From: Bacteroidota bacterium
Lineage (GTDB): Bacteria > Bacteroidota > Ignavibacteria > Kryptoniales > JAKASW01
Length of the DNA: 64,000 bases
Direction: 5' to 3'
NCBI GenBank assembly: GCA_021825585.1
Contig: JAKAGT010000002.1
Span: forward strand, 1-64,000
Shown: positions 20,612-27,882 of the stretch, one piece after another
How positions within the stretch are numbered: position 1 is the stretch's first letter
How the letters are laid out: the number at the start of each line of letters is the position of its first letter
Notes under the pieces: model-generated
Database searches by the model: none
Told to the model about the DNA's origin: nothing
Seen by the model: the letters and a program-made list of their open reading frames with translations, nothing else
Position numbers and translations under genes: made by a program

Positions 20612-21571
20612 TTACCTGTAGTTCCACCGAAACATCTTCAATTCAGACAGGACCGAATCCGAAAGTTGCCTTCCGTCCGACGCCGCACAGTTGCTCTCCA
20701 CATGACCGACCCTTCTCATTCCCGGGATAACGGTCGAGACCGCGGGATGATGCAGCACATATCTTAATGCCATTTCGGTAATAGGAGTCGCCTCTCTCTC
20801 CAACAAACCGTTCAGCCGGTTTACGCGCTTCACGACCTCTCTCTTCCTCTCTGAAGTGAAATACCTGTTTCTGAAATCACCTTCAGGAAAGGTGGAGTCG
20901 GCTCTTATGGATCCCGTCAGTGAGCCTTCATCGAAAGGAACACGCACGATGACGCCCACATCGTGCTTCTGGCAAAACGGGAAGAGTTCATCTTCGGGCG
21001 ACTGGTCGAAAATATTGTATATCACCTGGAATGTATCTATCAGCCCCTTCCGTGCCGCTTCGATACCATTCTCCGGCTCATGATCATTTATCGAAATTCC
21101 CCAGAACTTCACCTTGCTCTCATCTTTCAATTTCAGGACGGCATCCCTCCACTCGTTGTCGTTCACCCATTCATCGTTCCAAACATGAAATTGCTGAATG
21201 TCGAGACAATCGACTTTCAGATTCCTCAAGCTGGCTTCGGTCGATTTGATGATGTGATCGTAAGTAAAAGCTTCGCGAAGCTGAACTCCGTGGGGTGCGG
21301 GCCATCTATTGTTCAACGGCGGAATTTTCGTGGCAACATAAATCCGTTCTTTCCTTTGCTTCAAAACGCCAGCGATCAATTCTTCACTGTGCCCCTTTCC
21401 ATATGCCAGGGCTGTATCCACGAAATTAACGCCGAGGTCGAACGCTCGATGGAGGGACCTTATGTTCTCTTCATCGGTTCCGTCGAGCCACATATTTCCA
21501 CCCATACCCCACGTTCCATACCCGATTTCGCTTACTTCGAAATTCGTTTTGCCCAGCCTTCTGTATTTCAT
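20612..21571 (-). CDS. aldo/keto reductase
   Basis: 319 aa. The ATG at 21571 is preferred over one at 21583 because GGAG lies six bases before it and it gives an ATGA overlap with the amidohydrolase stop. The catalytic tetrad is readable: Asp and Tyr in VDTALAYGKGHSEE, Lys in VATKIPP, His in QQFHVWND. The family reduces carbonyls with NADPH; the substrate is unknown. It is translationally coupled to the amidohydrolase gene. Confidence 0.9.
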   Translation of the reverse strand: MKYRRLGKTNFEVSEIGYGTWGMGGNMWLDGTDEENIRSLHRAFDLGVNFVDTALAYGKGHSEELIAGVLKQRKERIYVATKIPPLNNRWPAPHGVQLREAFTYDHIIKSTEASLRNLKVDCLDIQQFHVWNDEWVNDNEWRDAVLKLKDESKVKFWGISINDHEPENGIEAARKGLIDTFQVIYNIFDQSPEDELFPFCQKHDVGVIVRVPFDEGSLTGSIRADSTFPEGDFRNRYFTSERKREVVKRVNRLNGLLEREATPITEMALRYVLHHPAVSTVIPGMRRVGHVESNCAASDGRQLSDSVLSELKMFRWNYR

Positions 21572-23325
21572 TGTGTTCTCCATCTGGCTGCGGTCGTGTC
21601 GACGTAGACAAATTTGCCGCCTACAATCGTACCGAGAATTGTATCGTAAGGTATTTCGTCGGCGTGCGCGGTCAATAAGTTCTTCTCAAAAATAGTGAAG
21701 TCGGCAAACTTCCCGACAGTTATCGAGCCTTTCTCACTCTCCTGGAACGCACCATATGCCGGCCATACCGTAAGCGATTTGATGGCCTGGTCAATTCTCA
21801 TCCTTTGCTGCGGGAAAAAACCGCCGTTGTAATCCGAACTGTCCGCCGCCGCATCCGGAGTCAGCACGAAGTACTTTTCGGCTTCAGCGAAGTTCTGCGG
21901 GACGCCGTCAATATCCTGTCTGGTAACTGCCGCGTATATTCCCATACGCGGGTCCGGGCTATCGTCGGGAAAATCAGATCCGCCGACCACGATACTCCCC
22001 GTCTTCAGGAGCGATTGCCACGCATAAGTAGTTCGGATACGTCTGCGGCCGACACGCGATTCTATCCAGTACATGTTCGACACGCATTGAACCGGCTGCA
22101 TGGACGGGATGATGCCGAGCGCCCTGAACCGATGAATGTCGCCCGGCAACAATACATCGACTCCTTCAACTCTCAATCTCGGGTCGGACGTTTCGGCGGC
22201 TTTCAGTGCTTCCTTGTAGGCATCGAGCACCACATCGATACCGCGGTCACCATGCGCCTCCGTACAAACCTGGAACCCTGATGCAACCGAGGCCACGGTG
22301 AGATTCTCCAGGTCCTTCTCGCCAAGATACGTTTCCCCGTAGTTCCCGGGATCGTCGGAATATGCCGACACCAGCGCGGCCGAACGATTACTCAGCGGAC
22401 CGTCCATGTCCACTCTCACGGCTCGCATCGTGAAGTAACCATTCTCTCCCAGTATAGGACCCTTCTTCAAAATTGCCGGAAGCGTCGTATCATTCCCGTT
22501 ATACATCGCGTAGATGCGGATCCTGAGGCCGCCTTTGCTCGCGAGCTCCTGGTAAGCGTGCAGGACACCTGCATCTATTCCCGCGTCCTGAACTTCGGTT
22601 ATCCCGTACCGTGCACACGTATCCGCGGCGAGGGCGATAGCATTCTGCAATTCCAATTCCGATGGCGGAGGAATCTGCGACGCCACCAGGTTGATCGCGG
22701 CACCGACAAAGATTCCCGACGGCTCTCGATTCTTCCCCCTGATGATCAGCCCGCCTGCCGGACTTATTGTAGAGGTTGTTACACCCGCCAGCTCCATCAC
22801 CTTCGTGTTGACCCATACCGCCTGACCGCCCGAACTCACGAGGAAAACGTAAAAGCCCGGGACGGCTTTATCCAGAACGGCGGCCGGAGAAGAATTGATT
22901 TGCCGCAACAAACGTTCACTCCACCCGGTTCCTCTTATCCATCCGCCGGGCACTGTTCTTGACGCGGCGCTTTGTACGAGCTTGACAACGTCGTTGGCTG
23001 TCTTTGCCGATGTCAAATTCACAGTTGTGAAACTCATCCCGAGACCTACCATGTGTGCATGACCGTCTATCAGGCCGGGCAGGACGAATGCATCGTGCAA
23101 ATCGAGTGTTCTCTTCCCTTCATAGCGCGATGTGATCCACCGGTTCATTCCGACGGCAACGATCCTTCCGCCGTCGACCGCGACTGCCCCCGCATCCGGT
23201 ATTCGCGGGTCCATAGTATAGAAATGTGCATTCGTGAGGAGAAGGTTTACTTTCGTCTTTGGAAGAGAGCACGACGCAAGACTAAATGCCAGAATGATGG
23301 CAGCAAAGATTCTTAGGTTGTTCAT
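21568..23325 (-). CDS. amidohydrolase family lipoprotein (YtcJ-like)
   Basis: 585 aa. The signal peptide ends FSLASC (Cys19), indicating a lipoprotein, which is unusual for this mostly cytosolic enzyme class. The amidohydrolase-3 layout is clear: LPGLIDGHAHMVGLG with the HxH metal pair near residue 90, the TEVQDAGID and EAHGDRGID segments, GGSDFPDDSPDP, and the C-terminal ITVGKFADFTIFEKN return to the small beta domain. It likely hydrolyses an amide or related bond outside the cytoplasm (inference). First gene of a minus-strand run to 15465. Confidence 0.88.
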   Translation of the reverse strand: MNNLRIFAAIILAFSLASCSLPKTKVNLLLTNAHFYTMDPRIPDAGAVAVDGGRIVAVGMNRWITSRYEGKRTLDLHDAFVLPGLIDGHAHMVGLGMSFTTVNLTSAKTANDVVKLVQSAASRTVPGGWIRGTGWSERLLRQINSSPAAVLDKAVPGFYVFLVSSGGQAVWVNTKVMELAGVTTSTISPAGGLIIRGKNREPSGIFVGAAINLVASQIPPPSELELQNAIALAADTCARYGITEVQDAGIDAGVLHAYQELASKGGLRIRIYAMYNGNDTTLPAILKKGPILGENGYFTMRAVRVDMDGPLSNRSAALVSAYSDDPGNYGETYLGEKDLENLTVASVASGFQVCTEAHGDRGIDVVLDAYKEALKAAETSDPRLRVEGVDVLLPGDIHRFRALGIIPSMQPVQCVSNMYWIESRVGRRRIRTTYAWQSLLKTGSIVVGGSDFPDDSPDPRMGIYAAVTRQDIDGVPQNFAEAEKYFVLTPDAAADSSDYNGGFFPQQRMRIDQAIKSLTVWPAYGAFQESEKGSITVGKFADFTIFEKNLLTAHADEIPYDTILGTIVGGKFVYVDTTAARWRTQ

Positions 23326-25967: not shown

Positions 25968-25995
25968 TTCCCTGTTGATGTAATTCAATTCAAGA

Positions 25996-26032
25996 AGAAG
26001 GCGTGCGACTCCGGACGGATCGCACGCCTTCT
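25996..26032 (+). terminator. stem-loop terminator after glutamate dehydrogenase gene
   Basis: A 13-bp perfect stem (AGAAGGCGTGCGA-type arm against its complement) with an 11-base loop lies 29 bp after the stop. The 3' tail (TCATTTC) is only weakly U-rich. It separates two convergent genes and could serve both. Confidence 0.65.
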
Positions 26033-26121: not shown

Positions 26122-27822
26122 TCAAAACGGACTTGCAAGGCGAACACCGAAGGCAGGTGATGCGGCTATGTCTGTTCTCCACGCAAGATAGATGCAGAAA
26201 GCACCGTCGCCCGTCCCGATTCCAAAACCGTAATCGGACTTGAACTGGTTCAGCTTCATCATTTGCCATCCGCTCGCCATTCCCGCAGACGGTGAAGCGT
26301 TTCCAACCTGCCCGATATCTCCAAACAAAAGAAGTGTAAATGTATTGAGTGGGAACAGATGCGAATGTTTAAAAAGCATCGGGTTGAATATGAACTCGTA
26401 ATTGAAGAGGAGCATTCGGTTTCCGGTGAACTCTTTGTAAGGGAAAGCATTGAGCGTATTGAAACCGCCTATCTGGTAAGAGCGCTGGAGCGGAAGGACG
26501 CCGTTTGCAGTTCCGCCGACGAGTCTCATGTTTAACTGCAAGCCTCTGAACAGCGGCTGGTACCGGACGGCGTTCAGTGAGAGCATCCGGAAATCGTAAT
26601 CCCCGCCAACAGTTGCTTCGCCTCTCAACCCCGCGATCCAGCCTTGTTTGCGGTCTCTGCCGCCGGTGTAGTACCTGTGTTCAAGATTGACGACTATGCT
26701 TCTCATCCAACCGGGGTCGATGGGAGGATTGGGACGAAATATCTTGTGTCCGCCGAAGATCGACCAGTTCGTCCGCTGCGCCAGTGACGAGTACTTGTCG
26801 ACGTCGTAGCTAAGGACTATTCTCGAATTCATCTGGTAATATTGGGCAACATGGAACGACACACCTTCGCGCGAGTAATAATCCATGTAATCCTCTTTCG
26901 CAAGAATCGCGAAAAATGAATTCTCCTTGGGATCGATAAGCCAGTAGTCTTTGGAATCCGTCAGCGAATGCCCTTCCACGCCAACCTCGAACCTGTTCTC
27001 GTTTCCGAACCACTTGTCGAGTCCCAGCTCGTATCTCCATCTGTGAAGCGCGAATGCATATCCCAAAAAGCCGTACGGCGAAAAGCTCTCCGCACCGCTC
27101 CAGTAGTAGTCTTTGTTTTGTCCGAGACCGAGGAAGAGCCCGTCCACTCTGTTATAGTTCGCGGCAACCCTCTCGAAGACAAAACTTGGTCTATGCCAGA
27201 TACCGGGATGATCGGTTATCCGCAAACCCCGGACAAATTCGCCTCTCTTTTCAAGTTCTCCGCCGCCCCGTTCAATCACGTTTCCACCGATCGTCGCTTC
27301 ATTGCTGACATGTGCCTTACCGTTCACGACAACGACGTCGCCGCCTATGTTCGCACTTCCTCTCACGTAAGCGTTCCCGTTTACAACTACAAGGCTTCCG
27401 TCGATTGTGCCGGAGATAAACGCGTCGCCGTTCAACACCTTTACGCCGGTCTTAACAACGCCATCACTCCCCAGTGTGTAATCGCCGTTGTAAACGACTG
27501 CGTCCTCGATATCGTAGACATGTGCCGCCTCGTTCGCCAGCTGAGCGGCCTTTTCGGATGTCTCCTTGATTTCTTCTCCGATCCTCTCCAGCGTCTCCGA
27601 CAACTTCTCTAGCTCTTCCTGATCCGATTCGGTAAACTCTTGCGTAGAATCCGTGCGGGCCTTGAAAAGCCGGTAGGCATTTTCAAACTTGTCCAACTCT
27701 GATTTCAGTGAGTCGACCACCCCCCTGCGGTAGACTCCAGTCGAATCGTATGTCTGGGCAGCCGTAAAAGATGGGAAAAGGAAAAGAAGACAAACCAAGC
27801 AGAATTGTAGCAGCCATTTCAT
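26122..27822 (-). CDS. bactofilin-like beta-helix fused to Omp85-type outer-membrane barrel
   Basis: 566 aa from the ATG at 27822, supported by AAGGAG eight bases upstream. A signal peptide ends FTAAQ. Then come a coiled-coil (about 35-90), a stack of short hydrophobic repeats like the polymer-forming bactofilin fold (about 100-190: VLNGDAFISGTIDG, VVVNGNAYVRGSANIGG, VVVNGKAHVSNEATIGG), and a C-terminal barrel of about 370 residues with the Omp85-type signature YQIGGFNTLNAFPYKEF followed by NRMLLFNYEFIF. It ends RLASPF, a typical barrel C-terminus. The combination suggests a periplasmic beta-helix plug or scaffold on an outer-membrane barrel. Function unknown; same strand as mqnA, 60 bp upstream. 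Confidence 0.75.
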   Translation of the reverse strand: MKWLLQFCLVCLLFLFPSFTAAQTYDSTGVYRRGVVDSLKSELDKFENAYRLFKARTDSTQEFTESDQEELEKLSETLERIGEEIKETSEKAAQLANEAAHVYDIEDAVVYNGDYTLGSDGVVKTGVKVLNGDAFISGTIDGSLVVVNGNAYVRGSANIGGDVVVVNGKAHVSNEATIGGNVIERGGGELEKRGEFVRGLRITDHPGIWHRPSFVFERVAANYNRVDGLFLGLGQNKDYYWSGAESFSPYGFLGYAFALHRWRYELGLDKWFGNENRFEVGVEGHSLTDSKDYWLIDPKENSFFAILAKEDYMDYYSREGVSFHVAQYYQMNSRIVLSYDVDKYSSLAQRTNWSIFGGHKIFRPNPPIDPGWMRSIVVNLEHRYYTGGRDRKQGWIAGLRGEATVGGDYDFRMLSLNAVRYQPLFRGLQLNMRLVGGTANGVLPLQRSYQIGGFNTLNAFPYKEFTGNRMLLFNYEFIFNPMLFKHSHLFPLNTFTLLLFGDIGQVGNASPSAGMASGWQMMKLNQFKSDYGFGIGTGDGAFCIYLAWRTDIAASPAFGVRLASPF

Positions 27823-27882
27823 TTTACAAACTCCTTTCACGTAGAAATCTACGATTTCGAAGGAATTTGTTACACTAGCGTA

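Follow-up and report, generated by a model that had tools for sequence, protein, structure and literature searches.

A single gene joins a signal peptide, helices, a solenoid and a barrel

Within the stretch of DNA analysed here (the window, 64,000 nucleotides), the minus strand carries an intact gene whose product is set out in Table 1. The reading frame opens with ATG at 27822 and closes with TGA at 26122-26124. A mechanical list of open reading frames gives an alternative GTG start at 27840; the AAAGGAG adjoining this GTG suits, by eye, a ribosome-binding site for the ATG, and the alignment of the genus relatives begins at the Met of that ATG. The protein runs from a signal peptide through a helical region, a bactofilin-like solenoid and a linker into an Omp85-related barrel. 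An earlier sequence-only reading had described a signal peptide, stacked VVNGNAYVRG-like repeats and a C-terminal barrel at this place, and all three were recovered in the intact frame, the repeats as three copies set in a periodic hydrophobic core. Its proposal that the protein is exported also agrees with the N-terminus, where a hydrophobic run ends in SFTAA|Q at residue 22 and, judged by inspection rather than by a predictor, is free of a lipobox. In the helical region, AlphaFold2 (AF2) placed helices at residues 27-60 and 65-102 with a pLDDT of about 50, and a Pfam profile scan gave weak matches to coiled-coil families.

Table 1 Features of the gene and its product; residues are numbered from the ATG start
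Feature	Residues	Coordinates	Strand	Basis
Whole gene	566 aa	26122..27822	(-)	Intact ORF; relatives aligned
Signal peptide, type I	1-22	27757..27822	(-)	Sequence inspection; AF2 helix 2-14
Helical, probable coiled-coil region	27-102	27517..27744	(-)	AF2 helices, low confidence
Bactofilin-like beta-solenoid	110-186	27265..27495	(-)	AF2 model; VIA-align; PF04519 in relatives
Linker	187-209	27196..27264	(-)	Weakest constraint among mature regions compared
Omp85-related C-terminal barrel, ending in Phe	210-566	26125..27195	(-)	Profile comparisons
L6-like motif YQIGGFNTLNAF	449-460	26443..26478	(-)	Aligns with Omp85 L6
FGDIG, strand-13 FxDxG-type motif	500-504	26311..26325	(-)	Omp85 alignment

The same protein is found on six named Bacteroidota contigs at 63-68% identity, one copy ending five residues early at a contig end. 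In a comparison with one of these relatives (L032), in which synonymous sites are saturated (pS ≥0.80), pN was 0.25 for the coil, 0.165 for the solenoid, 0.35 for the linker (0.351, computed over residues 187-215) and 0.13 for the first half of the barrel. To judge from these substitution values, all four segments are under purifying selection. Because six contigs carry the same protein, and because helices, solenoid and barrel alike are under coding constraint, we take the fusion not to be an assembly joint.

Within the genus, the gene lies after genes read as rimM, trmD, rplS and two menaquinone (mqn) genes; outside it, what we take to be pdxJ-like and YbbR-like genes occur nearby at 7/21 and 8/21 loci, respectively, most flanks being short. 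A dedicated operon was not seen, and the neighbours look like housekeeping genes. Rfam returned no match around the gene, and a terminator scan returned one site, inside the gene, shuffled sequences averaging 2.1. By eye, two convergent genes are separated by a long inverted repeat rich in G+C (GGCGTGCGA...TCGCACGCC, 25994-26032), which resembles a shared terminator; it is absent from the list of that scan. A further open reading frame on the minus strand (21568-23325), presumably encoding an amidohydrolase-like protein, stays close to the gene at six loci of the genus (L003, L032-L035 and L037); the aldo/keto-reductase-like frame next to it in the window had no match there.

The N-terminal module is modelled as a short bactofilin-type solenoid

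The three repeats, VLNGDAFI (129), VVNGNAYV (146) and VVNGKAHV (165), are the matches to a pattern written after the repeats had been seen; it matched nowhere in 19,989 of 20,000 shuffles and once in the other 11, a test that says only that the repeats are not compositional. Core hydrophobic positions recur every 17-19 residues (for example 117/134/151/170 and 123/140/159/178), and 15 core positions are hydrophobic in 23/23 aligned relatives, the 566-residue protein included. When residues 98-192 were modelled alone (AF2, seven sequences), strands appeared at the same spacing, with a pLDDT of 87.3 (88-96 per ten residues in the solenoid part) and a pTM of 0.79. Structure prediction thereby supports the beta-helix that the sequence-only reading had proposed. 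The barrel stayed unmodelled: for the full protein, with seven sequences, AF2 produced helices and solenoid only, mean values falling to 21-31 past residue 200. The predicted solenoid has about 4-5 rungs and is covalently continued at both ends. Residues 135, 152 and 171 (F/Y/H) occupy equivalent positions on three successive rungs and so form a ladder; all seven genus sequences have F135 and H171, which vary beyond the genus.

We compared the solenoid model by VIA-align with 168 chains, all from the list returned by Foldseek, and the ranking of bactofilins rests on these. The top row was 6rib (Z 9.6, 2.0 A over 74 residues), followed by 6ria (Z 9.3, 2.6 A over 73), and these two stand apart from the rest; a third bactofilin, 2n3d (Z 7.8, 2.4 A over 75), tied with CcmM (7.6, 10.9 A) and the protease fusolisin (7.3, 3.1 A over 89), and ice-binding proteins reached a Z of at most 6.8. 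Foldseek alone returned no row at E ≤0.001 for the solenoid (best fusolisin, E 0.075) and ranked bactofilins low (2n3d at E 0.81, 6ria at 3.2). From the superposition on bactofilins, we infer that the beta-helix is right-handed. A left-handed hexapeptide helix of the LpxA type was disfavoured, with an hhalign P of 11.6 in a comparison built from 4/15 fetched LpxA loci; CcmM and PglD, which we take to be left-handed helices, superpose only at about 11 A.

At the level of sequence profiles, hmmscan gave no Bactofilin match for the 566-residue protein, and the Pfam Bactofilin family was matched by 15/20 full-length family members (E ≤1) and by 18/23 solenoid segments (E ≤10). Among relatives of the same layout, three (L104, L105 and L106, at 34.1, 32.0 and 28.9 bits) pass the PF04519 cut-off of 27.9 bits, two (L107 and L108) do so only with neighbouring pieces added, and three (L109, L011 and L010) stay below it. 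The assignment to the bactofilin and Omp85 families made by the sequence-only reading thus finds support in relatives that pass the Bactofilin cut-off and in the Omp85 homology described below, but not in a Bactofilin match of the protein's own solenoid. Searched against solved structures, the solenoid profile found YdcK first (E 0.0038) and then bactofilin 6ria (0.043). Against 30 canonical bactofilins, hhalign gave P 96.2 (E 2.3e-9); since the controls were also high (P 66 for reversed bactofilin, P 91 for the solenoid against its own reverse), repetitive composition inflates this value, and it is the forward excess that counts. According to its structure title, 6ria is a crystallised TtBac mutant, F105R. 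The equivalent of Phe105, counted by hand along the alignment and carried over by hand, is Ile178, and across the 23 rows this position holds Ile (11), Val (10) or Phe (2).

Given that beta-solenoids converge easily, the domain might instead serve simply as a stiff spacer or bind peptidoglycan or polysaccharide, as a beta-helix with neither bactofilin ancestry nor self-assembly, attached to a barrel that forms a pore for small molecules or lipids. The high reversed-profile controls, the weak matches to YdcK, fusolisin and ice-binding solenoids, and the small number of rungs with covalent continuation at both ends would all suit such a spacer. It accounts less well for three observations: Bactofilin is the commonest Pfam match of the solenoid segments (and second to DUF5686 in full-length members), bactofilins occupy the top structural rows, and the Phe105 position is hydrophobic in all 23 relatives. 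We regard this alternative as unlikely, if well worth keeping in view.

The barrel is related to Omp85

Judging from profile comparisons, the C-terminal barrel is homologous to Omp85. Aligned by hhalign with six Omp85 proteins of its own genome, it scored P 97.0 (E 8e-11, 312 columns), the alignment being reliable only past about residue 400; in the controls, TonB receptor barrels reached P 0.14 and reversed Omp85 0.10. A TonB-dependent receptor barrel was rejected on the former value (4.7 for the arginine-keeping clade described below). In a PF01103 search of the genome the gene scored 33.0 bits (cut-off 24; model positions 121-305), in a stretch that extends past the stop codon, and hmmscan gave no Omp85 match for the 566-residue protein or its barrel. 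Across 37 barrels of the family, Pfam matches at E ≤10 were to Omp85 in 26, to DUF5686 in 32 and to ShlB/FhaC in 4. The barrel profile searched against the PDB matched 9ccg (E 6e-11, profile positions 125-351), which is named a 'POTRA domain-containing protein' and carries SLRGY and FADAG as its motifs; it also matched two BamA sequences (E 3e-5 and 3.7e-5). The best Pfam match of the barrel is DUF5686 (PF18939; residues 220-368, profile positions 334-484 of 669), at 36.6 bits for the full protein and 37.8 for the barrel alone, below the cut-off of 39.2. In the Pfam profile scan, no POTRA domain was matched in the 566-residue protein at E ≤10. The proposed fusion to an Omp85-type barrel is therefore upheld by the hhalign, PF01103 and 9ccg matches, and neither repeats of a fold other than a beta-helix nor a barrel unrelated to Omp85 was encountered, the barrel being judged by sequence profiles.

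The lid-lock arginine is missing from the solenoid-bearing barrels

Omp85 proteins are characterised by the motifs (V/I)RG(Y/F) on loop L6 and (F/G)xDxG on strand 13, which an Arg-Asp salt bridge connects, as described in the accessible portion of Maier et al. (PMC4490367). The stretch YQIGGFNTLNAF, quoted in the sequence-only reading, is present and aligns with L6; its motif reads TLNAF, with Asn458 in the place of the Arg of a VRGF-type motif. We examined these positions in 75 rows, retained from 92 once the paralogue L002 and 16 rows duplicating another over their last 300 residues had been taken out. The lid-lock Arg occurs in 0/44 solenoid rows (one of which, L161, is a fragment at 15.3 bits, the threshold being 15) and in 0/19 solenoid-less rows, and is kept in 12/12 rows of a separate solenoid-less clade. 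Position 502 on strand 13 holds Asp in 43 and Glu in one of the solenoid rows (72 Asp, 1 Glu and 2 Asn over all 75, both Asn rows being solenoid-less). Lys463, found in 40/44 solenoid rows and 63/75 overall, might stand in for the missing Arg.

In the barrel tree, rooted at the midpoint only, the Arg-bearing rows group together in a single starred clade (99/97). The midpoint root puts this clade among Arg-less rows, implying several losses or a regain; a root on the branch of the Arg clade, as Arg-bearing Omp85 outgroups would suggest, implies one loss. The solenoid label requires five changes on the tree, which fits one gain and several losses, or several gains. A link between loss of the Arg and gain of the solenoid was rejected, as the 19 solenoid-less rows also lack the Arg. 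With the Arg kept in one clade and missing elsewhere, this barrel family offers a natural test of the motif's role. In the same genome, a patatin-like Omp85 protein (L044, C9:9932-10846) has a degenerate L6 motif, LGGQDLFYGLRDD, so that more than one loss of the Arg may have occurred among the Omp85 relatives of this genome.

The sequence-only reading had called the barrel insertase-like, and on this point the evidence goes the other way: with no POTRA detected and the Arg missing from every solenoid row, the 566-residue protein is probably not a standard insertase. It could still be a working insertase or translocase of the Omp85 type in which solenoid and helices replace the POTRA domains in binding substrates or partners and some other contact replaces the lid lock. 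Homology to Omp85, the acidic residue on strand 13 in 44/44 solenoid rows and the frequent Lys463 would be expected of such a protein, and a 2014 survey of Omp85 proteins (PMC4104836) proposes, in the part available, assembly roles even for the noNterm group. Yet the Arg is missing in 63/63 rows outside the 12-row clade, three proteins of the same genome, one BamA-like and two TamA-like (named by reading), do keep it, and the N-terminal modules of relatives differ or are missing altogether, so we consider a working insertase unlikely.

The architecture is conserved across seven families of the class

A single-sequence query matched 123/296 Bacteroidota genomes, many of the matches being solenoid-less barrels or DUF5686-length proteins, and the family profile matched at least 125/294 genomes of the class at 1e-20 or better. 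Among the matches listed, 103 genomes were tabulated, of which 62 span the solenoid and 41 do not; in this table DUF5686-length frames were left out, alignment limits served to define the solenoid span, the 41 include a few contig fragments, and part of the 103 were checked as sequence. The architecture noticed in the window therefore recurs in other genomes, namely in at least 62/294 of the class and, in this search within Bacteroidota, in four f19 genomes outside it. Within the class it is present in families f1, f2, f8, f51, f53, f54 and f56, and on these alignments the solenoid-barrel architecture is conserved across seven families. Other family members carry helices and an acidic linker, or a short N-terminus, in place of the solenoid, and one f2 member (L163) has lost it. 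A scan of viral contigs for further relatives of the 566-residue protein gave 45 pattern matches and 0 relatives.

Canonical bactofilins occur in most of the same genomes

The genome that carries the gene also encodes a stand-alone canonical bactofilin (L038, an open frame of 125 aa). Taking a best PF04519 match at E ≤1e-10 as canonical and setting three fragmentary genomes aside, we found such a bactofilin, among the matches listed, in 55/62 genomes with a solenoid barrel and in 11/38 with a solenoid-less barrel (Fisher p 1.7e-9, genomes within a family not being independent). In f56, a canonical bactofilin was undetected in 3/3 solenoid-bearing genomes sampled, two of them incomplete.

This co-occurrence bears on whether the protein is an exported bactofilin proper, whose solenoids would polymerise end to end, from one molecule to the next, as a filament or net held beneath the outer membrane. 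Its predicted fold is that of the filament-forming bactofilins, the equivalent of Phe105 is Ile, Val or Phe in 23/23 rows, and the genomes concerned mostly hold a canonical bactofilin as well. Against this, helices and barrel attached covalently at the two ends may block stacking, and the co-occurrence follows family lines, the sampled f56 genomes having the solenoid without a detected bactofilin. Polymer formation, which the sequence-only reading attributed to the fold, is a nucleotide-free property of cytosolic bactofilins; for the solenoid it is a possibility, but such an exported bactofilin seems to us quite improbable. Highly doubtful, too, is a second, periplasmic bactofilin cytoskeleton, in which Omp85-derived anchors without the lock would carry solenoids stacked into filaments or a net that fix barrel positions or link the outer membrane to the wall.

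Two adjacent proteins of about 250 aa, bactofilin-like and without an evident signal peptide, are encoded in the same genome (L039, 327-1815), and a similar pair is found in another genome of the genus, G308 (L111, 1641-3156); in each, the canonical bactofilin lies elsewhere.

A candidate scaffold anchored in the outer membrane

Based on the sequence comparisons and the solenoid model, the protein is exported and combines an Omp85-homologous barrel, a helical region and a short bactofilin-type solenoid. We put at about even odds (a probability of roughly 0.5) that it serves as a periplasmic scaffold protein, anchored in the outer membrane and carrying a bactofilin-like module. Following export by Sec through the signal peptide, the barrel would be inserted by BAM, as its C-terminal Phe suggests. 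Solenoid and helices would then lie in the periplasm, given the signal peptide, the terminal Phe and the Omp85 topology with both ends inside. The barrel, with no detectable POTRA and no lid-lock Arg, although the partner aspartate is kept, would no longer be an insertase or translocase and may instead anchor the protein, perhaps as a narrow or closed pore. Solenoid and helices would form a module for interaction or oligomerisation, presented beneath the outer membrane, one that related proteins appear to have swapped for helices and an acidic linker or for a short N-terminus. We favour a scaffold because seven families of the class retain a membrane anchor paired with a bactofilin-type module.

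The solenoid shares with bactofilins (PF04519; TtBac 6ria/6rib, BacA 2n3d) turns of 17-19 residues, the superposition and a hydrophobic residue at the Phe105 position; the protein differs in its signal peptide, its 4-5 or so rungs and the placement of the solenoid between helices and an outer-membrane barrel. The accessible portions of two papers (PMC12448750, PMC6590870) put bactofilins on the cytoplasmic side, including, in the latter, even membrane-anchored enterobacterial ones, and that of a third (PMC9507126) calls CcmA cytoplasmic. With a signal peptide and a barrel in one chain, the 566-residue protein would not share this cytosolic location. If true, a conserved bactofilin-type domain with a signal peptide and an attached Omp85-type barrel would carry this fold into the periplasm. 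Bactofilin domains outside the cytosol may already have been described in a topology study of Proteus CcmA (Hay, 1999) and for archaeal halofilins, and we therefore do not claim a first exported bactofilin domain. In the open-licence papers searched (titles and abstract openings), we found no description of a bactofilin-Omp85 fusion and no papers on DUF5686.

With the Omp85 superfamily (PF01103; BamA, TamA, FhaC and the noNterm group), the protein has in common barrel homology, a GG...GN(R) frame in L6, an FxDxG-type motif and a C-terminal Phe; it differs in having no detected POTRA, a replaced lid-lock Arg and a bactofilin-like N-terminus. The available part of the 2014 survey (PMC4104836) distinguishes ten architectures, among which the noNterm group is likewise without an N-terminal extension, and its main text, as far as available, does not contain the word bactofilin. 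A distant DUF5686-like paralogue in the same genome (L002, an open frame of 833 aa) has a different N-terminus. We take the latter to be carboxypeptidase-regulatory-like. PlpD-type patatin-Omp85 and WD40-Omp85 proteins resemble the 566-residue protein in joining an Omp85 barrel to a further periplasmic domain and differ in the domains used; in PlpD, the patatin domain stays in the periplasm and one POTRA is kept (PMC11116518, from the part available). By reading, L044 and L046 of the same genome look like these two layouts: in L046 (C33:25409-25933), an Omp85 barrel follows a long region of propeller-like repeats, much as in the WD40-Omp85 proteins of the survey's accessible part.
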